From Planctomycetota bacterium (GTDB taxonomy: Bacteria > Planctomycetota > Phycisphaerae > SM23-33), in assembly GCA_016235825.1 (NCBI GenBank), contig JACRIL010000091.1, forward strand, positions 1 to 49,998: a stretch of DNA of 49,998 nucleotides, written 5' to 3'. The notes under the pieces were generated by a model. The model worked only from the letters and a program-made list of their open reading frames with translations. It searched no databases and was not told the DNA's origin. Positions 801 to 49,599 of the stretch are shown here, one piece after another (within the stretch, counting starts at the first letter, position 1; each line of letters begins with the position of its first letter). The position numbers and the translations under genes are program-made.

Positions 801-1559
801 ATGGCTCGCATGGCATTTCTGGCGGTAACGGCGACAGGGCTGATTTTTCTGGCATCCTCATTGGCATTTTCGGCCGCAGGTCCCCAAGCGACGACCAGGC
901 CCGCAAACGCCGGCGGAAGAGATGCCAGGACCAGAGGAGGCGGCGATCCCGCGTTTGCCCAGTTTACCGACAGGACCATCAAGGCCGATCTGGGCGATCT
1001 GGTTAAATTCGCCGATTTTGACAAGATGATCGATCAGCAGGCCGAAGCCCTCAAGCTGACCGACGCCCAGAAGGAAAAGGCCAAGCTCACCGCCGATCAG
1101 AAGGAAAAACTGGCCAAGATATTCCAGGAGAAACTTGACGGCCTGAAGGACGGCACGCCTTATGCCAAGGCGAAGGCGAACATAGAAAGCACAGTCCGGG
1201 ACAGGACCGCACAGGCGAGCCAACTCAAGAGCTTGAGGACGGAGTACGACAACAAGTTTTTCGGGGACGCGTTCAAGCTTCTCACGCCCGAACAGAAGAG
1301 CATCTTCTACACCGCCCGGCTCTATGAGATCGTCGGGCCGGAATTCAACGTTCTTTTGCTGACGCCCGACCAGGATGCCAAGCTGCGGACCGTCTGCGCG
1401 AGCGTGGCCAAACGGATTGCCGGCGGCAAGCCCGTGGATCTGTCAGCCGATCAGGCTTTTCTCGCCGCCGTCAAGATGGAAATCGCCAGGGCGGTTTTGA
1501 CTCCGCCCCAGATCGCCGAATGGCAGAAAAATACCGCCACTCCAGCTCCAAGAAGATAA
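801..1559 (+). CDS. Secreted LTxxQ-motif helical protein, copy 1
   Basis: A 252-aa protein with an N-terminal signal peptide (hydrophobic residues 4-25, cleavage probably after SAA-G), a short Pro/Arg/Gly-rich linker and a charged, mostly helical domain from about residue 55 to the end. That domain contains five LTxxQ motifs: LTDAQ 86-90, LTADQ 96-100, LTPEQ 161-165, LTPDQ 187-191 and LTPPQ 233-237. LTxxQ repeats are typical of periplasmic Spy/CpxP-type helical proteins, so an envelope chaperone or stress role is possible, but the resemblance is at motif level only. Residues 58-244 are closely similar to the C-terminal half of the next gene, indicating a recent tandem duplication. The start is set by the SD GAGAGGTGAG directly before ATG 801. 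No enzymatic motif is visible. Confidence 0.8.
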   Translation: MARMAFLAVTATGLIFLASSLAFSAAGPQATTRPANAGGRDARTRGGGDPAFAQFTDRTIKADLGDLVKFADFDKMIDQQAEALKLTDAQKEKAKLTADQKEKLAKIFQEKLDGLKDGTPYAKAKANIESTVRDRTAQASQLKSLRTEYDNKFFGDAFKLLTPEQKSIFYTARLYEIVGPEFNVLLLTPDQDAKLRTVCASVAKRIAGGKPVDLSADQAFLAAVKMEIARAVLTPPQIAEWQKNTATPAPRR

Positions 1560-1680
1560 GAAGCAATACAACCTCATGTAACCGGACATGCCGGCGGCCG
1601 TAACGCCAAACGCAACGGCGTTATGTTGCAAAGCCGCCTCTTATTCACCACGATTTTGGGATGAGAATCTGATTTATTCT

Positions 1681-1775
1681 TTGGCTATATCAAGCGCAAG
1701 AACGTATAATTACATTAGTTGGCGATGTTTTAGAAGATTTCAAATCATGTCTGGAATCGGGAAAGGGTTTCCCGA
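1681..1775 (+). promoter_or_regulatory. Candidate promoter and 5'-UTR hairpin upstream of the second LTxxQ gene
   Basis: TTGGCT at 1681-1686 and TATAAT at 1705-1710 are separated by 18 bp. A perfect inverted repeat, TCGGGAAA-GGG-TTTCCCGA, occupies 1757-1775, before the ribosome binding site GAAGGAGG. This suggests that the two paralogs are transcribed separately. Confidence 0.5.
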
Positions 1776-1804
1776 GAAAACCGCGATAGCCGAAGGAGGC
1801 TGAA

Positions 1805-3097
1805 ATGCTGCGGACTGCCGGAGTTACACTGCTTTTCGGGGCGGTTTTTGCCCTTGTGGTTTTGGGGCAGGAACAGCCTGCCACTGATAAGGCCAAGGTC
1901 GGTTTTGTCTGGTGGGAAGGCGAGAATTACACGAAGACGGACTTCCCCACGACCGATGCTCTTGCCAAGGGCGGCTGGTACAAGGCCGAGCCTCTATCCG
2001 CGGGCAAATGGTTCGGGGCGACAAGCCTTCCGGCCGGGGCGTTCCTTGAATATGAAGTGGATGTGCCCAGGGACGGGACATATAAATTCTTTGCCCGAAG
2101 ATTCTGGAAGCACGGGCCGTTCAAGTGGCGATTCGGCGAGGGGGCGTGGGTTGACTGCGGCAAAAGCAGCACGCTGCTGGACGGCGCCGGCGAAGAACTG
2201 GCCAAGAATATCTGCGTGAACTGGGTTTCGCTGGGCGACGTGAAGCTAAACGCCGGCAAGACCACCTTTCGGCTGGAGCAGTCGGAGGCCGGCAACGCCT
2301 GCTACGACTGCTTTGTCCTGGTCGACGGCTCGTTCACACCGACCGGGAGCCTGAAACCCGACGGGTCCGGAGGCAGAGCCGCGACTCAGGTGGCCGCAAC
2401 GGCGCCGGGGCCGGAAAAGGTTGCGGTAACGCCGCCCAAGCCCCCAGACCCCAAACCGGCCGACACCAAGCCTCCGGTAAGCGCCATATCCGCGGAATTC
2501 GCCAGGTTCAAGGCGGACCGGACCATCAAGGCCGACATGGGCGATCTGATTAAATTCGTCGATTTTGACAGAATGATCGACCAGCAGGCCGACGCACTCA
2601 AGCTGGACGACGCTCGCAAGGAAAAGGCCAAACTCACGGACGAGCAGAAGGAAAAAATGCTCAAGATTTTCCAGGAGAAGCTCGACGGCCTGAAGGATGG
2701 CACGCCTTACGCCAAGGCAAAGGCGAACATAGAAAATGCGGTCAAGGGGGCCGCCCAGACGGACCAGATCAAGAAATTGCGGACTGAGTACGACAACAAG
2801 TTTTTCGGAGACGCGTTCAAGCTTCTCACGCCGGAACAGAAGAGCATCTTCTATACCGCCCGGCTCTATGAGATCGTAGGGCCGGAGTTCAATGTTCTTC
2901 TGCTGACGCCCGATCAGGATGCCAAGCTTCGGACCGTCTGCGCGGCCGTTGCAAAAAAGATTGCCGGCGGCAAAGCGATCGACCTGTCAGCCGATCAGGG
3001 TTTCCTTAACCAAGTGAAGTTGGAGATCGCCAAGCAGGTCCTGACGCCGCCTCAGATCACCGAATGGCAGAAAAACACCAGCACCAAAAAGCCGTAA
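1805..3097 (+). CDS. Secreted carbohydrate-binding-like domain plus LTxxQ domain, copy 2
   Basis: A 430-aa protein. Residues 1-22 are a signal peptide. Residues about 33-178 form an aromatic-rich beta domain (WWEGENY near the start, EYEVDVPRDGTYKFFAR in the middle, CYDCFVLVDG at the end). It resembles the carbohydrate-binding-module-like beta-sandwiches found on planctomycete exported proteins; two closely spaced Cys near 167-170 could pair. A Pro/Lys-rich linker (about 180-228) joins it to a C-terminal domain (236-425) that is nearly the same as copy 1, with LTDEQ, LTPEQ, LTPDQ and LTPPQ motifs. The first LTxxQ of copy 1 is LDDAR here. SD GAAGGAGG precedes ATG 1805. Function unknown; the fusion suggests that the helical domain is targeted to a glycan or to the cell surface. 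Confidence 0.8.
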   Translation: MLRTAGVTLLFGAVFALVVLGQEQPATDKAKVGFVWWEGENYTKTDFPTTDALAKGGWYKAEPLSAGKWFGATSLPAGAFLEYEVDVPRDGTYKFFARRFWKHGPFKWRFGEGAWVDCGKSSTLLDGAGEELAKNICVNWVSLGDVKLNAGKTTFRLEQSEAGNACYDCFVLVDGSFTPTGSLKPDGSGGRAATQVAATAPGPEKVAVTPPKPPDPKPADTKPPVSAISAEFARFKADRTIKADMGDLIKFVDFDRMIDQQADALKLDDARKEKAKLTDEQKEKMLKIFQEKLDGLKDGTPYAKAKANIENAVKGAAQTDQIKKLRTEYDNKFFGDAFKLLTPEQKSIFYTARLYEIVGPEFNVLLLTPDQDAKLRTVCAAVAKKIAGGKAIDLSADQGFLNQVKLEIAKQVLTPPQITEWQKNTSTKKP

Positions 3098-3260
3098 CCG
3101 GTCCGGTTTTGCCGCCGGGCCGCCGGGTTCGTGAATAAGCAGGGCGACGTTGTTGAACCGGCTCCATTCCGCGTGCGGAAGATGACCTTCCGGCAGGGCC
3201 TCCCGCTCGGCTGCCGGCGATTTCTCCGTCAAGGTCCGCGGATCGCCAAACGAATTTCGG

Positions 3261-4460
3261 TTATTTCTTTTTCGAGGCCAGGGCCTTTTTGAGGGCCTTG
3301 GCCGCCGCGGCGCGGATGTTTCCGCCCCGGCCGGTGGAACGCTCGTTCTGGAGCCTGTTGAAGAGCGACTCGATTGCCTGTGCCTTCACCGGTAGCTTGA
3401 CAACCTTGTTTGTGTAACCCGACAGATAGGCCGCGTTTGAAAGCTCCAGGCCGTTGATGCCCTCGGCTCCGCTGACCACCATATGCTCGCCGCGGAGCAG
3501 ATGCGCCGCGAACGCCCGGATCACCAGGATATGCGAGCTGCCGCCCTGTTCGGCCAGATCCACGTCGCTCCACGTGGTTGACTGCTCATCCGGGCCGGGC
3601 CAGGCCTTCGTGGACTTGTAAATGTGCTGTGAGATCGGCTGGAGCAGCCGGCCGATCTTCAGTTTGCCGCCCTCGGCCACGAGCGTCGCCTTGTCGCCGG
3701 TGATTATGAACTGGTCGATGCCCGGCTCCTCGGCCGTCGTAACGTAGATGTAGCCGATCTTCCCCTTGTCGTACATGCAGATGATGTCGGCCGTGTCCTC
3801 GACCTCGATCTTGTGGCAGCGGGTGCTGATCGCCGCGAAGACCTTCTTTGGCATGCCGGCGATCCACTGGAACAGGTCCAGGCTGTGCGGCGCCTGGTTG
3901 ATGAGCACCCCGCCGCCCTCGCCGTCCCACGTGCCTCGCCACGATCCGCTGTTGTAGTAGGCCTGCGTGCGGAACCAGTTGGAGCAGATGTACTGCACGC
4001 GGATTACGTCGCCCAGTTCGCCCGACTCGACCATCTGCTTCATCTTCATCATGATCGCCTTGGTCCGCTGCTGGAACATCATGCCCAGGGCGACCTTCCG
4101 TTTTTTGCACTCGGCGACCATCGTTCTGGCGTGGCCGACCGTGGACGAGAGGGGTTTTTCGCACAGCACGTGCAGGCCGGCCCTGGCGGCCAGCACCGTC
4201 TGCGGCGCGTGCCAGTAGTGCTGCGTGGCTATGATTACCGCGTCAATCATGCCGGAGTCGTACATCGCCTGTGCGTCGTTGAAGGCCGCAACGTTCAATT
4301 CCGCCCCGATGGTCTGCAGCCTGTTCTGATCTATGTCGCAGATCGCCCCGAGGCAGAAATCCGGATCGTTGTCCTTGACGATGCCCCTGGCGTGCGGGAC
4401 GCCCATTGCACCCAATCCGATTACGCCGAACCTGACTTTGCTAAGCTTGCTGTTGGCCAT
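3261..4460 (-). CDS. Gfo/Idh/MocA family NAD(P)-dependent oxidoreductase
   Basis: A 399-aa cytoplasmic oxidoreductase of the glucose-fructose oxidoreductase / inositol dehydrogenase family. The N-terminal Rossmann motif is VIGLGAMGVPHARGI, and the family's EKP motif is present in LHVLCEKPLSS. The remaining residues form the usual alpha/beta C-terminal domain. The start at 4460 (MANSKLSK) is chosen because AAGGAG lies directly upstream and the glycine loop then begins at the normal distance; an upstream in-frame ATG at 4502 would add 14 unlikely residues. The substrate cannot be read from sequence; this family is greatly expanded in planctomycetes, where members act on sugars and polyols. It is divergent from trpF, with a 144-bp intergenic region. 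Confidence 0.85.
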   Translation of the reverse strand: MANSKLSKVRFGVIGLGAMGVPHARGIVKDNDPDFCLGAICDIDQNRLQTIGAELNVAAFNDAQAMYDSGMIDAVIIATQHYWHAPQTVLAARAGLHVLCEKPLSSTVGHARTMVAECKKRKVALGMMFQQRTKAIMMKMKQMVESGELGDVIRVQYICSNWFRTQAYYNSGSWRGTWDGEGGGVLINQAPHSLDLFQWIAGMPKKVFAAISTRCHKIEVEDTADIICMYDKGKIGYIYVTTAEEPGIDQFIITGDKATLVAEGGKLKIGRLLQPISQHIYKSTKAWPGPDEQSTTWSDVDLAEQGGSSHILVIRAFAAHLLRGEHMVVSGAEGINGLELSNAAYLSGYTNKVVKLPVKAQAIESLFNRLQNERSTGRGGNIRAAAAKALKKALASKKK

Positions 4461-4604
4461 TTGTTTCTCCTTGTTCCGGTCATGAATCATGCCGGCTGGC
4501 AATTATGGAAGCGGATAGTTTATTTCCTCATGCTCCGCGTTGCAAGAACCCAGTCGAAAGGTTATTTAATTACGTGCGGTGAAACTTTCGGGCGAAATAT
4601 ACCC

Positions 4605-5279
4605 ATGCGCACGTGGATCAAGATAGAAGGTCTGAAGGACTCGCGGACCGCCTCGATGGCGGCCGTAAACGGGGCCGACGCGATCGGGCTGGTCTTCGCC
4701 CTGTCGCCCCGGCGGGTAGGGCCGCAAGAGGCGGCCGAGATCGTCCGCGCCGTGCCGGCCTCTGTCCACAAGGTCGGCGTGTTCGTCAACTCCACGCCTG
4801 ACGAGATCAACCGTGTCGCCGACATGGTCGGCCTGACGCACGTGCAGCTTCACGGGCAGGAGCAGCCGCCGATTTTGGCCCGGCTGAACCGCCCGTGCAT
4901 CAAGGCGTTCCACGTCCGCTCGGCCGGCTGGGCCGACGACGTGCATGCATGGATCGCCAAGGCGCCGGATAAGTCGAAGCTCTTCGCCGTGCTGCTGGAT
5001 GCTTACGATTCCACCGCCGCCGGCGGGACCGGCAATCGCTTCAACTGGGACCTGGTCGTCGCGGCCCGGCAGGATGGAAAGCTCGAAGGCCTGCCCAAGC
5101 TCATCCTTGCCGGCGGGCTGGACCCCGACTGCGTGGCCGAGGCCGTCCACAAGGTCAGGCCCTGGGGCGTCGACGTCGCCAGCGGCGTAGAATCGGCCCC
5201 GGGCGTAAAGGACCAGGCCAAAGTCAACGCCTTCATCCTGGAAGTCCGCGGCTGCGACTCCGCGGGAGGATTGTTTTAA
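4605..5279 (+). CDS. trpF: Phosphoribosylanthranilate isomerase with a Cys-to-Glu change at the catalytic position
   Basis: A 224-aa TIM-barrel protein of normal TrpF length. The family pattern is clear: NGADAIGLVFA, VGVFVN, VQLHGQE, LLDAYD followed by GGTG (phosphate loop and catalytic Asp), LAGGLDPD, and VDVASGVES near the end. TrpF performs the Amadori rearrangement of phosphoribosylanthranilate in tryptophan synthesis. The N-terminal family motif KICG, whose Cys is the general base, here reads KIEG: the codon at 4626-4628 is GAA (Glu8). The catalytic Asp is retained. ATG 4605 is the only sensible start; the open frame continues upstream but lies antisense to the neighbouring gene. No other trp genes are nearby. 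A long palindrome overlaps its stop codon. Confidence 0.88.
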   Translation: MRTWIKIEGLKDSRTASMAAVNGADAIGLVFALSPRRVGPQEAAEIVRAVPASVHKVGVFVNSTPDEINRVADMVGLTHVQLHGQEQPPILARLNRPCIKAFHVRSAGWADDVHAWIAKAPDKSKLFAVLLDAYDSTAAGGTGNRFNWDLVVAARQDGKLEGLPKLILAGGLDPDCVAEAVHKVRPWGVDVASGVESAPGVKDQAKVNAFILEVRGCDSAGGLF

Positions 5280-5337
5280 GAGCCTATCCGAATAACTACA
5301 ATGGCAGTTCATCGTAGTTATTCGGACAGGTTCTTAA
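5276..5337. repeat. 62-bp near-perfect palindrome overlapping the trpF stop codon
   Basis: Two 24-nt arms (5276-5299 and 5314-5337) are complementary except for two positions that still allow G-U pairs in RNA, around a 14-nt loop. The arms begin and end with TTAA. The left arm starts one base before the trpF TAA, so the element abuts or inserted at the gene end. It could act as a terminator-like or mRNA-stabilising hairpin, or be a tiny palindromic mobile repeat; there is no T-tract after it. Part of an arm (GGATAGGCTCT) also occurs at about 43867. Confidence 0.6.
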
Positions 5338-5388
5338 GCTCGAAATGTATTTTACGGGGGCTTTCTTGCAAATTTGGCGATACCGTGG

Positions 5389-39042: not shown

Positions 39043-40665
39043 TTATTGTTTTGCCGGCTGCGACTGGCTTGCCGGGCTGGGTTGAATCGGCGTCAGCGTC
39101 GCGGCGTACAGCACGATGTTTCGCATGACGTTGAAGGCGCTTTCGGGATCGTATCCGTCGCAGGCGTACGACGGGAAACCCACCAGCCCGGAGACGACAT
39201 CCTCCTGACTGAAGATGACCTTGGGCCTGTCGCCGGCCAGAATCGCCATCAGACAAGGTTCTTTCACCCCGACGAGCCTGGCCCTCGTCACCCGGCGGTA
39301 TTTGACCTTCTCGATGGTCATGTCCTTCATCTGATAGACCGGGCTGGAAAGAGGCAGCGGCAGCAGGTTGTCTGCGCCCCAAAGTTCGCCGATCAGTTCC
39401 CTGGCCGAATTGCCGAAGCCCCTGGCCCCGCCGCCGGCGTCGAAGAGGATAAGCCCGCCCTGTCCGGCATAATCCCTGAGTGCGGCCTTCTCGTCATCTT
39501 TCAGTTTAAAAGCGGTCGTGCCCGTCAATATCGCCAGTTTCGCCCCGGAATCCTTGAGAGCCGCGATCTCGACCGGCTCGGGCGGATAATCAACCTTGAC
39601 CTTGAATGACGCGCCCATCAATCTGCCGAACCGCTCCAGTGCCAGCGGCTCGGCGTCGCAATTTCCGGCGTACTTGAGTTTGACGACCTTTACGGTCTTG
39701 TCGAATGGTCCAGCCGGTTCGGGCGGCCATGAGTTTGCGCCGCGGTTCTTTATCTGCTTGTCGGTAACGTACAGCAGCACGGTCGAGGCGGCGTCGAAGG
39801 CATGTTTGCCCGTCGCCACGGTGTACTGCTGCCAATGCAGCGACAGGTCGTCGTCGGTGTGCAGCACGAGCGGGCGGATGCCGTTGTGGATCATCGAGAA
39901 CCTCGCCTTGCCGCCTGTCAGGCCGTGCAACTTGTAGAACTCGTGGTCGGGGCCGATGACCTGAAGCTCGTATTTCGGGAAAAGTTTTTTGTACAGATCC
40001 TTCATCCCGAGGCTGAAGGCGCCGCCGCCGCACTGTGTCATCACGAAGAGCGTCCCGCCCTGCCGGACGTACGTCCTGAGCTTGGCGACATCCTCATCCG
40101 AAAAGTCCGGCTTGACAGACCCGCCGATGTAGACGATCGGGGCGTCGTGCCACTCGCCGACCTCGGATTTGAGCGTGATGATCTGCCAGTTGACATCCTT
40201 TTCCAGGTTCTTCTGGTACTTGTTTTTCGTGGTCTTGTTGGCCGACAGCCAGACGTTGCACCGCAGGCCTACGGAATACGTCCGCCAGTCCGTAGTCTCC
40301 ACCTGGGCATCCTTCAACTCGAGAAACTTTTCCTGATTCTTTGCCATCCAGTCCAGCGCCTTTTGCATCCGCGGGTCCTGCGCATCTGTGCCGCTGTCCA
40401 GCAGGGCGTAGCAGGCAAGGGCCGTCAGACCGGTTATGTAATACAGGTCTTCGCTGGCGCCGCGTTCATTTTTCGGCACGCCTACGTCGCCCCAGCTTCC
40501 GTCGTCAAGTTGTGTAGACCACAGATAACTGACGCCCTTTTCGATAGCCTTGCTGACATCCCCATCTGTGAACGACTTGACGGGTTTGCCTCTCTGCGCC
40601 TGGGCCGGCTGAGAAAAGCATGCAACCAGAACCGTGATCGCTGTTACGATAATTTGAATTCTCAT
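39043..40665 (-). CDS. Exported DUF4159 protein with prenyltransferase-like repeat
   Basis: A 540-aa protein with a signal peptide (residues 1-24). Residues about 35-120 contain a terpene-cyclase/prenyltransferase alpha-toroid repeat (KAIEKGVSYLWSTQLDDGSW, TGLTALACYALLDSG). Two DUF4159-like segments follow: about 180-300 (APIVYIGGSVKPDFSDEDVA, LRTYVRQGGTLFVMTQCGGG) and about 360-520 (GAKLAILTGTTAFKLKDDEK, LRDYAGQGGLILFDAGGG). DUF4159 is related to the glutamine-amidotransferase-like fold without its catalytic residues, and is frequent in Phycisphaerae. The tail is SPASQSQPAKQ. Function unknown. It starts 45 bp after the preceding PQQ gene, so they are probably cotranscribed. Confidence 0.8.
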   Translation of the reverse strand: MRIQIIVTAITVLVACFSQPAQAQRGKPVKSFTDGDVSKAIEKGVSYLWSTQLDDGSWGDVGVPKNERGASEDLYYITGLTALACYALLDSGTDAQDPRMQKALDWMAKNQEKFLELKDAQVETTDWRTYSVGLRCNVWLSANKTTKNKYQKNLEKDVNWQIITLKSEVGEWHDAPIVYIGGSVKPDFSDEDVAKLRTYVRQGGTLFVMTQCGGGAFSLGMKDLYKKLFPKYELQVIGPDHEFYKLHGLTGGKARFSMIHNGIRPLVLHTDDDLSLHWQQYTVATGKHAFDAASTVLLYVTDKQIKNRGANSWPPEPAGPFDKTVKVVKLKYAGNCDAEPLALERFGRLMGASFKVKVDYPPEPVEIAALKDSGAKLAILTGTTAFKLKDDEKAALRDYAGQGGLILFDAGGGARGFGNSARELIGELWGADNLLPLPLSSPVYQMKDMTIEKVKYRRVTRARLVGVKEPCLMAILAGDRPKVIFSQEDVVSGLVGFPSYACDGYDPESAFNVMRNIVLYAATLTPIQPSPASQSQPAKQ

Positions 40666-40710: not shown

Positions 40711-43695
40711 TTATTGTCCTGCCTGGAGGCAGATAAGCCTGCCGTCCCGCGTGGCGACGAACAGCCGGCCGTTGCCGGTGGACAGGCCGTCGAAGGCCGG
40801 AGCGGCGTCCAGTTCCAGCCGGCCTTTCTCCGCGCCATCAGCCAGCGAAAGAACAATAATCAATCCCTTGCCGTCCGGTTCCGGTTCGCGGGCAATTGCG
40901 ACAGCCACGTGATCCGCCGCCATCAGAATAGCCTTTCCGCGGCACTTTTCCGGCAATTTGACGGACCACAGTTGCTGCGGCCGTCCGACAGGGTCGGAAA
41001 ATGCAGCGACTTCGTTCCGCTCGCTGTGCAGCCGGACCATCGTGCTGCCGCGAAAGCACACTCCACTGCCGGTCATTTCCGGAATCTTCTTGCCAAAAAT
41101 CCCCGATTTCTCCAAACCCCAGAGCCGCCAGGGGTGTTTGAACCCGTAAGGCGGCCGGGCGACGTCCTCGGTGAATCCGCACGCCCCGCCGTACAGGAAC
41201 GTTCCGGTCGCCTTGTCCAGCGGCTTGCCGGTCGCCATGTCGAGTATGCAGCGGTCCATGTACAGAGATTTTCCATCCATGCTCAGGATGCCGCCCATCG
41301 TGTTTTTGACGTCGCTGACGAACTGCTGCTGGAGCATTTTTTCCCGCCGCACAAGCTGCTGCCAGACCGGCTGGCCCGTATCGGCCTTGACGGCGAAGAC
41401 CTCGATTCCGCCGTCGGTCTCGCTGTGCCGCCCGGCGGCAAAGTACGCCACTCCGTCGTTGGCCAGCACGCTTCCGGCGATCGGCCAGACCGATTCCAAC
41501 TGTCCACGGACGGGGATCATCCTTTCCGCCGCCGCGGCCCGCATCCGCCAGACAAGTTGCCCGTCGGCCTGCTTGAGGCAGTAGACGTACCCGTCGGCCG
41601 AACCGAACAGGACGAGCTGGCCGGTGCACGTCGGAGGCGAATCGATCCTGCCTCCGGCCGTGAAGGACCACGCCTCCTTGCCCGTGTCCGGCTGGAGCGC
41701 CGCTACACGGTGTTCATCCGGCGCCGCGGCCAGAACCAGCGAAGCCGGGATGACCGCCTGCGTCGAGAGCTTTCCGATCTTCGCTTGCCAGAGCGGGTCG
41801 AGTTTGGGGCCGAGTTTTGTTTCCGTCGCCCCGCCGCGAGTCCCATCGTGCCTGTAGGCCGGCCAGGGGTCGGCCTGGGATTTCGCCGCCGATGCCTGTC
41901 CGAACGCCGGCCCTTTCTGAAGCGCCGGCCCTGCCGCCGTGCGAAGAGCGGCAAGATCGGCGGCGGGCTGGGCGCTGTATGCGACCTGTCCCCGCACCTG
42001 AGCGAAGCAGACGCAGATGTCGGAAGACTTGTAGATCAGCCCGTTGGCCGGGCGATATCCGCCGCCGCACGTGCCTCGCCCGCCGTAGAAACTCGCGAAC
42101 TTGCCCTGCCGGACGTCAAGGCACGCGATGCCGACGTCTTCCAGGATGTATCGCTCGGTGGCAAGGTCGGAGTAGCATCGCAGAAAGGCTCGTTGGGCTA
42201 CCGGCAGCCGCTGTTTCTCTTGGCCGGTCTTAGCGTCCAGGGCCACCCAGCTTTGAGGCGGGCCGTCATCCTGAAGCCAGATCTGATCGCCCATGAGGAA
42301 AACGTCAGGCCGACCCTGATGCCAGTGAACCTTGTACTTGAAAGTCCACAGGGGTTTTCCGTCGGCGATGGAATACGCGCGATTGACGGCCTCGGGAGAG
42401 TGCCCTCCTTCACCTGCCGCGGGACGCGCCCTGATGGTCGCCTCGGTCAGAAGAAGTCCGCCGCGGGCGCATGCAAGTTCGCTGAAACCTTCATTGGGAA
42501 CCTGCCATTTGATCTTGCCGGTCTTGGCGTCCAGACATATCAACTGGGCGTTTTCGGGCTTGCCGTAGCCTTTCAGAAATACGCATCCTTCAGCCGCCAC
42601 CATGCCGGCATAGCCGGCGGCCTCACTCTGCCAGACCTGCTTGCCTGTCCGGGCGTCGTAGGCGGCCAACTTGCCGGGGCCGGTGATTAACATGCCGTCG
42701 GTCAGAATTATAGCCGAGGCCGAAAAACCGTATTCCAGCACCTGTTCGCCGGTGGCGGCGTCCAGGGCCACGAGCGGCTTGCGGGCCTCCAGCAGAGTGT
42801 ATACGCGATCCTGGTCGGCGATAAACAGCGGGGACGGGTGCAAGGAAACCCGCTGCCAGAGCATCTGGCCGTTGAAGGCGTCGCGGGCGAGTATCCTGGT
42901 TTTTTTGGACTCGTCGGCCATCAGATAGAAGACCCGCCCGCCGGAACTGTAGATGCCGAGCATGCCCCAACTGTCGTTTTCGGAAATCCACCGGTCGCCG
43001 TTAATCCAGCGGACGCCCGTCGGCGGGCCGACCAACTGGTCTTTGGAGATGGCCGAACGGGATGCGTCGTAGCGAACCTGGCCCCAATTATCCATTTCCG
43101 GCGGATAGGGTTTTTGCAGCAGCGTCCAGCCGGCCGGCGGGGGCTTCATTTCGGACAGGCCGCCCTGTTTGCGGTCGTCGGCGGACGCCTGTCCGCCCAG
43201 CATGACTGTGCCGTAAGGCGCCAGCACGCGGACGACCTCAGCCATGGTCAGGCCCCGCTTGCCGGCGGCAGCCCAGTCCTCGATGACTATGAGATTGGCA
43301 AGGTTGTCGGCGTAAGGAAGAGATGCCGGTTGGCTCCATAACGCGGCGGAGACCTGCCCGTAAACTCCTGCGGCCTGGATGTTCTTTCGGGCCGCGTCGA
43401 GCGAGGCCGCGTCGGCCGTCAGGCCTTGAACCACGTACTGGCCGCCCAGGGCCAGCTCGGCCGTCAGTTTCCCTTGGCCGCACTCAATGTGCAGACACAC
43501 GCCCGGCCGGACCTGCCGCGACGACAGCAGCCCGTGAACCGTCTTGGCCGCCGGCGACAGGCCCGCCGGAGAAACGGGCAGCGCGGATGATTTTGTGTTT
43601 GTGGCCGGCGAGGTCTGGCCTCCTGCCGGAGTCAATTCGTGGAGAACAGCGACGATTGCCAGAGACGAAACGATCAGGCTCGCGATTGCTTTCAC
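40711..43695 (-). CDS. Exported methyltransferase-like domain fused to PQQ-like beta-propellers
   Basis: A 994-aa protein. Residues 1-26 are a signal peptide. Residues about 50-170 are a class I methyltransferase-like Rossmann domain: CLHIECGQGKLTAELAL (motif I), SLPYADNLANLIVIEDW (motif II/III region) and EVVRVLAPYGTVMLGG. The rest (about 200-990) is a long series of PQQ-like propeller blades, such as VALDAATGEQVLEYGF, LICLDAKTGKIKW and VAALQPDTGKEAWSF. Methyltransferases need cytoplasmic SAM, so export of this domain is odd and may mean loss of catalysis. Function unknown. First of three same-strand genes. Confidence 0.8.
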   Translation of the reverse strand: MKAIASLIVSSLAIVAVLHELTPAGGQTSPATNTKSSALPVSPAGLSPAAKTVHGLLSSRQVRPGVCLHIECGQGKLTAELALGGQYVVQGLTADAASLDAARKNIQAAGVYGQVSAALWSQPASLPYADNLANLIVIEDWAAAGKRGLTMAEVVRVLAPYGTVMLGGQASADDRKQGGLSEMKPPPAGWTLLQKPYPPEMDNWGQVRYDASRSAISKDQLVGPPTGVRWINGDRWISENDSWGMLGIYSSGGRVFYLMADESKKTRILARDAFNGQMLWQRVSLHPSPLFIADQDRVYTLLEARKPLVALDAATGEQVLEYGFSASAIILTDGMLITGPGKLAAYDARTGKQVWQSEAAGYAGMVAAEGCVFLKGYGKPENAQLICLDAKTGKIKWQVPNEGFSELACARGGLLLTEATIRARPAAGEGGHSPEAVNRAYSIADGKPLWTFKYKVHWHQGRPDVFLMGDQIWLQDDGPPQSWVALDAKTGQEKQRLPVAQRAFLRCYSDLATERYILEDVGIACLDVRQGKFASFYGGRGTCGGGYRPANGLIYKSSDICVCFAQVRGQVAYSAQPAADLAALRTAAGPALQKGPAFGQASAAKSQADPWPAYRHDGTRGGATETKLGPKLDPLWQAKIGKLSTQAVIPASLVLAAAPDEHRVAALQPDTGKEAWSFTAGGRIDSPPTCTGQLVLFGSADGYVYCLKQADGQLVWRMRAAAAERMIPVRGQLESVWPIAGSVLANDGVAYFAAGRHSETDGGIEVFAVKADTGQPVWQQLVRREKMLQQQFVSDVKNTMGGILSMDGKSLYMDRCILDMATGKPLDKATGTFLYGGACGFTEDVARPPYGFKHPWRLWGLEKSGIFGKKIPEMTGSGVCFRGSTMVRLHSERNEVAAFSDPVGRPQQLWSVKLPEKCRGKAILMAADHVAVAIAREPEPDGKGLIIVLSLADGAEKGRLELDAAPAFDGLSTGNGRLFVATRDGRLICLQAGQ

Positions 43696-46296: not shown

Positions 46297-49200
46297 ATGG
46301 CGAACGTGAATTTGACGACAGCAAGCGACGGCGAACTGCTTTGCGATTTCATCGGGCAGCGGCGGCATGAGGCCTTTGCCGAGATAGTGCGCCGCCACGG
46401 GGCTTTGGTTCTGGGCGTCTGCCGGTCGGTGCTGGGAAACGTCCCTGACGCCGAAGACGCGGCCCAGGCGGTTTTTCTGGCGTTTTTCCGCAAAGCCGCG
46501 TCGCTCAAGCATCATCCTGCATTGGCCGGCTGGCTGCATCAGGTGGCATGGTATGTGGCTTCTCACGAGAAAAGGGCGATCACGACGCGAACGCGCCACG
46601 AACAGGAGGCGACCGCCATGAAATGGAGAGCATCGCAAATAAAAAATGAAAACGTTCCCCCGGACCTGCTTCACGAGGGCCTTTCCCGGCTGCCCGAAAA
46701 GTACCGCCTGCCCATCATCCTGCATCATCTGGAAGGCCGCAGCCAGGAGGAAGTGGCGAACGTGCTGGGCAAAAAAGTCGGCACTGTCGCGTCGCTTCTG
46801 ACACGCGGCAGGCAAATACTCCGGGATCGTCTCGTAAAGACCGGCGCGGTTGTTTCCGCGGCCGGCCTGGCGGCTGTGATGACAACCCAGGCTTCCGCAG
46901 CTGTTCCGGCGGCGTTCGTCGGCTCGATTACGAATATGGTGTCGGCAATCCTGACCACCAAGGCGGCGGCCGCGGGCGCGGCGTCGGCCAAGATTTTGGC
47001 ACTTTCGAAAGGAGCTTTGAACATGTTGTTGATCGCGAAGGTAAAGGTGGCGGCATTGGTGACGGCGGCGGTCCTTCTGGTCGGCGGAACCGCGGCGAGC
47101 ACATATGTGGCGGTGGCCGCCGGACCTGGAAACGGAACCGTAAAACCGCCGGCGGCTGTTCCATCCAAGCCGGCCGTTCCGCCTAAAGTCGTGGCCGCTC
47201 CGCCCAAGACCGAAACGGTCGCGCCTGCAAGCCCATCGACCCCGGCGCCATCTTCGACCGACAAGGTTACAGTCGTGGAAATCACGGACAAGGTCCTGGT
47301 CAAGGACACCCGCCGGCTCGGCGTCAATATTGGCGATGATAATGTCTGGAACGGCGCGGTGCTGGTGAAAAAACGGGTGCAGGACAACTTCGAGGGCACA
47401 CTTTATCGCCAGTGCCATTGGGGCCCCACTTGTGACGCAAAGGGCGTTACGAGCTGGTACAACACGTCGCCGGCGTGGGATAAAATTTTACTCGAAGGAA
47501 CATACACGGTCCTTTCAGGCCCCAACAAGCAGACCAGCGGGAAGCTCAAGGCGATTACAACTAAAGAGATGCAAGGAAAGCAACTGACGTATTTTGAATT
47601 GGACAAGGAGATCACAGAAGGCAAAGACAGAAACATGAGATACGGATTGTTGGTGGAGAATCTTGAGAAGATTCGCGATGGCCAATTCCGTCCATTGGCG
47701 AAAAACTTCGGCACAACGACAGGCAACCAGATCGTCATCGGCGACACGCCTCCGGGCAGCTTCGGATGTGCGGCCTTGTGCCTCAAGCCGGACAACGGTC
47801 CGGCCTGGGTCGGGTATCCGACGCCTGTGCAACGATTTATTGACAACAATGGCGCGTGGCGAGTCGAGTTTTGGGCAAAGACCAAGGAAGGCGCCCCCAA
47901 ATTTACGGTCAGCTTTGCTTCTTTCAGCGCCCCGGACAAGCCTTTAGCCAGCCAAACCGTGGAGTTGACGAATCAGTGGAAGAAACATCAACTGACGCTC
48001 AAAGTGGAGGGCTTTCCCGAGCCCAAAGACGTCCCCAAAAACCCGGGAGAAACCATGGGCCAGCCGGGGGCTATTCTTTTGCAGTCTGACGGAGGCCAGG
48101 TCCTGCTGGACGATGTCGAGGCGTGGAAGGACGAAGACAAAAACCCGACAGTACTCCGCGACGACGCCATCGCGGCCATTAAATTATACAATCCCAGCGT
48201 ATTGAGGTTTGTTCAGATGGGCGGCAACTCGCTCGAAAACACGCTGATGCCTCCGATAAAAGCCTATTCCTTCACTAATATGAAATCCGCGGAAGTCGGG
48301 CCTTACGTCAGGCTCGTCAAGAACCCGGTTGGTTTGCACGATTTCTATCAGTTGTGCGAATACCTGGAAATCGAGCCCTGGTACTGCGTGCCGGGAACCC
48401 TGCATCTGGATGAGGCAAAGGCGCTCATGGAATATCTTGGCGGCCCGGCCGACAGCAAATTCGGCAAGATCAGGGCCGAGTTGGGCCATCCCAAGCCCTG
48501 GACGGAAACGTTCAAGCAGATACATGTGGAATTCGGCAACGAGGCCTGGAACGACGCTCCGGGATTTATGTGCGGCGGATTCAACGGACCGGATTATTGG
48601 ATGGACCTGATTGAAACCGGCAAGAAGTCTCCTTATTACAAACCCAATGTCCTTTTCCACGCCGGCAGCATGGCGGGGTTGCCCGATCGGACCGTGTCGG
48701 TCTGCAAAGATGTGCCAAATGCCGACCGGGTAGCGATCGCGCCATATATGGTGGGCACGTTTGCCAAGGCTGACGCGGAAACGCTGAACAGCGACGAGAA
48801 GCTCTTCCGCTGGACGTTCAGCCATGCATTGCAAAGATCGCTTACCGAAGGGAGTTCTTTAACCAGCACATATAAGGCGGCGAAGGCTGCCGGCAAGGAA
48901 TTGTCGATCTACGAGTTCAACTTTCATACGACCATGGGCGATGGGCCGGAAGGGCCCCGCAACACCATTGTTACGTCGCTGGCCGGCGGCGTGAATGTGG
49001 CCAACACCATGCTTCTCATGCTGAAGCTGCAAGGCATCCGGATTCAGAATCTTTACTCGCTGGTGCAGTATCAGTACAAATATCAGGACCTGAGAAGCAG
49101 GACAGAGGGACAAGTCCGTTTGTGGGGGTCGCTCGTGAATATGCGAAAGGGGAAGGAGCGTTACAGGCCGACGTTCCTGGGCTGCGCCCTGGCCAACAAA

Positions 49201-49599
49201 GTCATGGGCGGAAATCTGGTCGAAACCGTTCACACCGGGGCGAACCCGATCTTCCAGGGCGCCGGCAAAACCGAAGACTGGAGGTCGGATAAGACACTGG
49301 ACAATTTCAGCGGCAGTTGCATCTGGAGCTACGCCTTCAGCGACGGCAAGAAACGCGGCCTGATCCTGGTGAATCTGGACCTGAAAGAAAGCCTGCCTGT
49401 GGAGTTGAAGTTCCAGGGCAAGCCCAAAGGTGCGATGAAGTGCTGGACCATGACGGCCGACAATCCCGCCGCGAGCAACGAGTTTGAAAATGAAAAACCG
49501 CAGGTAAGCATTGCTGAATCGCAGGTGCAGCTTGAAAGCGGCGGCAAGCTGTCGCTGCCCCCATGCTCGATGCAGGCCTTCGCGTGGGAGGTCGAGTGA
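46297..49599 (+). CDS. ECF sigma factor fused through a membrane anchor to a GH51-like glycosidase region
   Basis: A single 1100-aa frame. Residues about 11-85 are sigma region 2 (HEAFAEIVRRHGALVLGVCR, DAEDAAQAVFLAFFRKA) and about 130-182 region 4 (LPEKYRLPIILHHLEGRSQE, VGTVASLLTRGRQILRDRL). An Ala-rich stretch and one transmembrane helix (about 247-268) follow, then a Pro-rich linker (about 275-325), a beta-rich region (325-600) and a TIM-barrel region (about 600-935). The barrel carries E749 in VEFGNEAWND (acid/base) and E873 in SIYEFNFHTT (nucleophile), 124 residues apart as in GH51 arabinofuranosidases. The C-terminal beta domain ends LSLPPCSMQAFAWEVE. SD AGGAG precedes ATG 46297. A second good SD-ATG (AAAGGAG then ATG 47023) lies just before the membrane helix. 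Confidence 0.85.
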   Translation: MANVNLTTASDGELLCDFIGQRRHEAFAEIVRRHGALVLGVCRSVLGNVPDAEDAAQAVFLAFFRKAASLKHHPALAGWLHQVAWYVASHEKRAITTRTRHEQEATAMKWRASQIKNENVPPDLLHEGLSRLPEKYRLPIILHHLEGRSQEEVANVLGKKVGTVASLLTRGRQILRDRLVKTGAVVSAAGLAAVMTTQASAAVPAAFVGSITNMVSAILTTKAAAAGAASAKILALSKGALNMLLIAKVKVAALVTAAVLLVGGTAASTYVAVAAGPGNGTVKPPAAVPSKPAVPPKVVAAPPKTETVAPASPSTPAPSSTDKVTVVEITDKVLVKDTRRLGVNIGDDNVWNGAVLVKKRVQDNFEGTLYRQCHWGPTCDAKGVTSWYNTSPAWDKILLEGTYTVLSGPNKQTSGKLKAITTKEMQGKQLTYFELDKEITEGKDRNMRYGLLVENLEKIRDGQFRPLAKNFGTTTGNQIVIGDTPPGSFGCAALCLKPDNGPAWVGYPTPVQRFIDNNGAWRVEFWAKTKEGAPKFTVSFASFSAPDKPLASQTVELTNQWKKHQLTLKVEGFPEPKDVPKNPGETMGQPGAILLQSDGGQVLLDDVEAWKDEDKNPTVLRDDAIAAIKLYNPSVLRFVQMGGNSLENTLMPPIKAYSFTNMKSAEVGPYVRLVKNPVGLHDFYQLCEYLEIEPWYCVPGTLHLDEAKALMEYLGGPADSKFGKIRAELGHPKPWTETFKQIHVEFGNEAWNDAPGFMCGGFNGPDYWMDLIETGKKSPYYKPNVLFHAGSMAGLPDRTVSVCKDVPNADRVAIAPYMVGTFAKADAETLNSDEKLFRWTFSHALQRSLTEGSSLTSTYKAAKAAGKELSIYEFNFHTTMGDGPEGPRNTIVTSLAGGVNVANTMLLMLKLQGIRIQNLYSLVQYQYKYQDLRSRTEGQVRLWGSLVNMRKGKERYRPTFLGCALANKVMGGNLVETVHTGANPIFQGAGKTEDWRSDKTLDNFSGSCIWSYAFSDGKKRGLILVNLDLKESLPVELKFQGKPKGAMKCWTMTADNPAASNEFENEKPQVSIAESQVQLESGGKLSLPPCSMQAFAWEVE
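47008..47025 (+). promoter_or_regulatory. Internal ribosome binding site and ATG within the sigma/glycosidase gene
   Basis: AAAGGAG at 47008-47014 is 8 nt before ATG 47023-47025 (Met243), in the same frame. Initiation here would give a signal-anchored glycosidase without the sigma domain. The Met is also part of the conserved anchor region of planctomycete ECF proteins, so the site may be incidental. Confidence 0.35.

Follow-up and report, generated by a model that had tools for sequence, protein, structure and literature searches.

To our knowledge, no anti-sigma partner can be recognised for many extracytoplasmic function (ECF) sigma factors, including those of planctomycetes, and their mode of control is an open question. 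ECF52 protein SCO4117 of Streptomyces coelicolor is a single chain composed of a sigma part, a zinc finger, a transmembrane segment, a Pro-rich extension and a carbohydrate-binding module (CBM) (PMC5826349); for ECF52, activation by proteolysis has been proposed (PMC5826349, PMC8999054). RsgI sensors carry glycoside hydrolase (GH) family 10 or CBM outer modules that report polysaccharides (PMC12203970, PMC4711584), and the GH10 module of Clostridium thermocellum RsgI6 is 57% identical to the regulon enzyme Xyn10D (PMC4711584). IutY (ECF243) of Pseudomonas putida consists of a sigma part and a membrane-bound extension, and is freed by Prc and RseP proteolysis (PMC8999054). Planctomycetal ECF groups such as ECF57, which has WD40 repeats, have long C-terminal extensions and no separate anti-sigma gene (PMC8999054). 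The gene described here lies in a 49,998-nucleotide stretch of planctomycetal DNA (the window; GenBank assembly GCA_016235825.1, contig JACRIL010000091.1, positions 1 to 49,998). In its single-chain product, a linker and one membrane helix connect ECF sigma regions 2 and 4 to a Pro-rich spacer, beyond which lies an outer module with the fold of family GH51. As judged from domains, structure models and analogy, the product is, with slightly better than even chances, a membrane-tethered ECF sigma factor using its own C-terminal outer domain as a glycan sensor. By sequence comparison, about 19 such fusion genes with swapped outer modules are present in this one genome, a larger finding than the single switch protein proposed in an earlier reading of the letters alone (the sequence-only reading).

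The fusion protein resembles ECF52 in that an ECF sigma factor, a transmembrane region, a Pro-rich extension and an outer carbohydrate-related domain are combined in one chain. However, ECF52 has a zinc-finger anti-sigma domain and a CBM, whereas the fusion protein has no zinc finger and a GH51-type fold outside; also, ECF52 is actinobacterial, whereas the fusion set is planctomycetal and comprises about 19 paralogues with exchanged outer domains. Like SigI/RsgI of C. thermocellum, the set consists of several paralogous sigma systems in one genome that differ in the outer CBM or GH sensors following a single helix, but SigI/RsgI is made of two proteins acting via an anti-sigma domain and a self-cleaving periplasmic domain, whereas here the putative sensor is fused to sigma. 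IutY shares the fusion of sigma to a membrane-bound extension; unlike the fusion protein, it answers an iron-siderophore receptor, and its extension is a fused anti-sigma factor, not a glycosidase. Planctomycetal groups such as ECF57 share the long extension without an anti-sigma gene, but have other C-terminal domains. By analogy, the working of the fusion protein is probably closest to that of SigI/RsgI condensed into one protein, or of an ECF52 that has no zinc finger; by the features tested, it belongs to neither. In Pfam searches of the fusion protein, zf-HC2 gave no match at E-values up to 1 and RsgI_N gave none, the N-terminus being occupied by the sigma regions; a self-cleaving periplasmic (SEAL) domain after the helix was likewise not matched by Pfam, and was not searched structurally.

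The domain order given in the sequence-only reading, i.e., sigma regions 2 and 4, one membrane helix and a Pro-rich linker, was borne out. Pfam identifies Sigma70_r2 at residues 30-93 (35.2 bits; cut-off, 24) and Sigma70_r4_2 at residues 125-173 (46.8 bits; cut-off, 25.7), corresponding to the ECF layout of regions 2 and 4 without region 3, and the NCBIfam profile sigma70-ECF TIGR02937 scores 59.7 bits (cut-off, 42.9). In an AlphaFold2 (AF2) model of the sigma-linker-helix part, which rests on 41 related sequences, both sigma regions have a predicted local distance difference test score (pLDDT) >90, the linker helices 188-199 and 205-220 are less certain, and a long helix at 231-269 has low confidence. 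Foldseek matches of the sigma model are the ECF sigma factors SigW, RpoE and AlgU. The most hydrophobic segment of the protein spans about residues 239-269 (mean hydropathy, 2.37) and is followed by Pro-rich sequence to about residue 322. By domains and fold, the sigma part is an ECF sigma factor; its binding to core RNA polymerase and its use of a specific promoter are predicted from the fold and from purifying selection.

The outer part, after residue 322, is predicted to fold into a TIM barrel preceded by one beta-sandwich and followed by another at the C-terminus (AF2 predicted template modelling score (pTM), 0.72). The top 46 Protein Data Bank (PDB) matches of this model in Foldseek are all GH51 arabinofuranosidases (best E-value, 7.9e-22), which agrees with the GH51-like barrel of the sequence-only reading. 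The proposed catalytic pair also stands: in an alignment of nine proteins, namely eight fused copies and one free-standing relative, neither E749 (GNE) nor E873 (YExN) varies. The expected profile match to GH51 was obtained in part. PDB-derived GH51 profiles (3s2c/3ug3/2vrk) match with E-values of 1e-14 to 3e-12, whereas the Pfam profiles stay below their cut-offs, i.e., Alpha-L-AF_C (PF06964) at residues 957-1091 (22.5 bits; cut-off, 27) and PF22848 (14.3 bits; cut-off, 22.2); CBM4_9 (PF02018; 14.4 bits) is also below cut-off. The module shares with the GH51 alpha-L-arabinofuranosidases 3ug3, 2vrk and 6zps the fold, the beta domains at both ends and the positions of the two catalytic Glu residues, but is only 12-19% identical, has sub-cut-off Pfam scores and contains an extra beta-sandwich region. 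These outer modules form a subfamily of their own, and its members are mostly secreted. By fold, the outer module is therefore a divergent GH51 relative outside the curated GH51 profiles, possibly with arabinofuranosidase or endoglucanase activity.

The genome (4.8 Mb, of an uncultured bacterium) contains about 19 genes with the sigma-linker-helix part, joined to at least eight kinds of outer module. About 10 are GH51-like genes with a sigma-derived N-terminal part, some broken by contig ends; the window protein has full-length fused counterparts on other contigs, with identities of 81% and 69%. Contigs C28, C51, C128, C136 and C213 stop inside or near GH51 fusion genes. This is expected if further near-identical copies broke the assembly, and the true copy number may be higher. 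Nine further genes carry the sigma-linker-helix part on modules other than the main GH51-like type: CBM9 (53.7 bits), GH30/59-like modules on C15 and C176 (scores near cut-offs), LamG (two genes), FGE-sulfatase, a weak GH42-like match, a carboxypeptidase-regulatory-like domain and, on C268, a CBM4_9-like module that is a distant GH51 relative. The sigma parts are of two types, about 30% identical to each other, and each type is found with both GH51-like and GH30-like modules. For the whole paralogue set, the outer domains suggest directly which signals, i.e., particular polysaccharides, might be received.

Both halves of the fusion are under purifying selection as judged from codon substitution: among close copies, the ratio of nonsynonymous to synonymous substitution rates (dN/dS) lies within 0.15-0.35 in the sigma half and 0.17-0.38 in the outer half. 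Four full-length copies, diverged by up to 31%, hold the whole frame, and this together with a dN/dS of 0.2-0.4 in both halves indicates that the fusion is not due to chance. Repeats among sigma genes could in principle have misled the assembler into linking a sigma gene with that of an unrelated secreted enzyme, and the assembly is indeed fragmented, with several copies broken at contig ends. However, the diverged in-frame copies, the shortness of exact DNA matches to other copies around the junction (30 bases at most) and a spacer that is consistent only in fused copies leave this explanation almost no chance. An assembly chimera or a frameshift between the sigma and glycosidase parts, considered as a candidate, was rejected on the grounds of those copies, the purifying selection and the junction match, in agreement with the single open frame seen in the sequence-only reading.

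Divergence is unequal along the genes. The synonymous divergence (dS) between the C21 and C257 copies is 0.96 for sigma vs. 0.33 for GH; between C213 and C171, it is 0.09-0.23 for linker and helix vs. 0.87 for sigma and 2.5 for GH. Linkers are 93-98% identical between copies whose flanks have diverged, and those of C158 and C268 are 98% identical, whereas their outer modules are very different. These patterns point to the linker and helix as the site at which outer modules were exchanged or gene conversion took place.

The low dN/dS of sigma in intact copies also bears on whether the sigma part might be defunct as a sigma factor and serve as a mere cytoplasmic anchor for a surface enzyme. Two copies are in line with this. 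On C276 (L065, minus strand), a GH51-like gene (985-3900) lacks region 2 but has region 4, linker and helix, and overlaps the sigma-CBM9 fusion (3890-5362) at the end of the latter; the LamG fusion on C252 (L073, 1-4020, minus strand) has no in-frame region 2, its upstream sequence belongs to another protein, and the copy looks truncated. Some copies are thus decaying. A general loss of sigma function is nevertheless very unlikely, given the selection in intact copies, the confidently predicted folds of both sigma regions and the class-wide conservation of the same N-terminal part with other modules.

Export of the C-terminal part is supported by comparison with related proteins. Sigma-less paralogues of the outer module adjoin the fusions on C15, C176 and C251 (L071:2868-4451, L074:9666-11336, L072:4786-5190). 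The membrane helix forms the beginning of those on C15 and C251, whereas the one on C176 begins slightly further upstream; identity to the fused module is 63% (C15), 51% (C251) and 70% (C176), and sigma is missing from all three, as is all or most of the spacer. On C276, a fourth gene, located behind the GH51-like one, has this helix as the export signal of a PKD protein. Also, in nearly all complete free-standing relatives in other species, a signal peptide, judged by eye without a signal-peptide program, directly precedes the domain; one has a lipobox. In the fused proteins, the helix therefore occupies the place of a signal peptide. Fused forms retain the Pro-rich spacer, which adds about 10 to 70 residues, whereas little or nothing of it is left in the secreted paralogues. 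The sigma-less twins beside some fusions also provide built-in controls.

The same observations could be explained if the helix were an internal signal peptide cut by signal peptidase, yielding a membrane-tagged sigma factor and a separate secreted enzyme with no transmembrane signal. The sigma-less paralogues do use this segment as an N-terminal export signal, and many type I copies have AVA-AG after the helix. This arrangement is nonetheless quite unlikely: the hydrophobic stretch is longer than would be expected of a signal that is cleaved, and a spacer kept in fused forms only makes most sense for a tethered domain, which favours tethering over a cleaved polyprotein without proving it.

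For the tethered glycan sensor, the following mechanism can be envisaged. The sigma domain would be held inactive by membrane tethering and possibly also by the conserved two-helix linker. A furanoside or related polysaccharide would be bound, or slowly cleaved, by the exported GH51-type domain; this might make the stalk or helix accessible to proteolysis, with a site-2 (M50) protease probably acting last, or might instead change the linker. The sigma part would then be released, or freed to bind RNA polymerase, and would direct transcription of its own gene as well as of neighbouring genes that encode exported proteins. Swapping of outer modules by recombination at the linker might yield new sigma factors for new glycans. 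The set might thus be a modular one-polypeptide switch from glycan to transcription, with an enzyme-derived outer domain on sigma, no need for an anti-sigma domain, and linker-swapped sensors forming about 19 private glycan channels; this fuller model is tentative, its chances being somewhat below even. If sensing takes place, the system would do with one component what SigI/RsgI does in biomass sensing, and would offer a ready modular part for biosensors.

Several points weigh against glycan sensing by a tethered sigma factor. The sigma-linker-helix model has a pTM of 0.44, which is too low to judge contacts between linker and sigma, and Pfam finds no zinc-finger or other recognised anti-sigma domain in the fusion chain. 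The helix ends in a possible signal-peptidase site (AVA-AG), and cleavage there could separate the outer part from the rest. M50 proteases are encoded in the genome, but as they are near universal in general, their presence is weak support. Finally, genome scans found no regulon, motif matches in clear promoter positions occurring almost only before fusion genes.

The last point bears on the role of the enzyme. A motif search in 11 upstream regions gave a score far above shuffled controls, and the motifs, about 50 bases ahead of the fusion genes, are of one kind per sigma type. If the GH51 module were a working surface-tethered glycosidase, with the attached sigma factor only self-amplifying its synthesis and no wider regulon, one could explain why both catalytic Glu residues and their motifs are kept in every copy and why the only clear shared upstream motifs precede the fusion genes themselves. 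However, the motif scan is insensitive, and free secreted copies adjoin three fusions while DUF4159 or PQQ genes recur near others, which suggests wider targets; such an enzyme-only role is unlikely. A CCGGATTTTCC stretch, like the fusion-gene motif, also precedes the downstream gene, and the upstream motif may thus be a general promoter. DUF4159 and PQQ families are expanded in the genome (75 and 77 matches) and are often near fusion genes: a member lies within 3 kb of 9 of 21 fusion places vs. 14% expected (P ~0.002, in a test chosen post hoc).

The GH alignment was scanned against 84,980 species genomes, and the GH51-like domain was found at 33 loci in other species, of Planctomycetota, Verrucomicrobiota, Lentisphaerae, Kiritimatiellae, Sumerlaea, Armatimonadota and others; none of the 33 is fused to sigma. 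As the domain is separate and secreted there, the fusion is lineage-specific rather than conserved. The recurrence of the domain order envisaged in the sequence-only reading was thus found within this genome, where about 10 of the about 19 fusion genes are GH51-like, and at none of the loci elsewhere. Its converse, that homologues might always be two separate genes, fails for the paralogues, which keep the fusion, and holds for the GH51-like domain in other species. A two-gene norm of sigma plus GH was rejected, since sigma genes are on only 4 of the 33 flanks and are not consistently adjacent. The sole large sigma fusion among these four flanks is a 1151-aa sigma-ankyrin protein of Planctomycetota BB1 (L131:8509-11961), tail to tail with a free-standing GH51-like gene. 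In UBA7800, a free-standing GH51-like gene (L080:320-1402) adjoins a LacI-type regulator gene, an ordinary alternative route of control.

Genomes of the same family or order gave no such fusion and mostly ordinary sigma matches. The class is probably Phycisphaerae, as judged from another of its genomes (G209), which has the same protein as Phycisphaerales UBA7800. Many genomes of the class have the same sigma-linker-helix part with FG-GAP, LRR, carboxypeptidase-regulatory plus thioredoxin-like, DUF5666 and other modules; in 19 sampled proteins of this kind, no carbohydrate-active enzyme domain was above cut-off. Outer domains of the carboxypeptidase-regulatory plus AhpC/TSA thioredoxin-like type (L184-L199 and others) recur in several genera and may be a redox-sensing counterpart.

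Table 1. Features of the fusion gene and its surroundings (window positions)
Feature	Position	Strand	Basis or remark
DUF4159 gene	39043-40665	-	window neighbourhood
Methyltransferase + PQQ-propeller gene	40711-43695	-	window neighbourhood
Upstream motif TTTCATGCATTTCT..ACGAC, candidate promoter, ~50 bases before start codon	46240..46273	+	common to type I fusion genes
Whole fusion gene, 1100 aa, ATG..TGA	46297..49599	+	single open reading frame without internal stop
Sigma-70 region 2, residues 30-93	46384..46575	+	Pfam PF04542; AF2 pLDDT >90; Foldseek to ECF sigma factors
Sigma-70 region 4, residues 125-173	46669..46815	+	Pfam PF08281; AF2 pLDDT >90; Foldseek to ECF sigma factors
Juxtamembrane linker, two predicted helices (188-199, 205-220), class-wide conservation, paralogue exchange point	46843..46986	+	alignments, AF2
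Membrane helix, ~residues 239-269	47011..47103	+	hydropathy; sigma-less paralogues
Pro-rich spacer, residues 273-322	47113..47262	+	absent from sigma-less and free-standing relatives
N-terminal beta-sandwich region of outer module, residues 323-619	47263..48153	+	AF2; weak CBM4_9 similarity
GH51-type TIM barrel, residues 620-967	48154..49197	+	AF2, Foldseek, PDB profile matches
E749, expected acid/base Glu in VEFGNEAW	48541..48543	+	invariant in alignment; aligned to GNE of 2vrk
E873, expected nucleophile Glu in LSIYEFN (YExN)	48913..48915	+	invariant in alignment
C-terminal beta-sandwich, GH51 C-terminal-domain-like, residues 972-1100	49210..49596	+	PF06964 below cut-off; AF2; PDB profiles
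Downstream gene start, exported DUF4159-type protein, cut by contig end	49784..49998	+	blastp

Near the fusion gene, Rfam identifies no RNA element. As the sequence-only reading had noted, no anti-sigma gene is adjacent: the nearest neighbours, an S1-domain gene upstream and the DUF4159-type gene downstream, are neither of them anti-sigma-like. The downstream product is 40-46% identical over about 68 aa to the DUF4159 proteins that follow the C128 and C158 copies (blastp).

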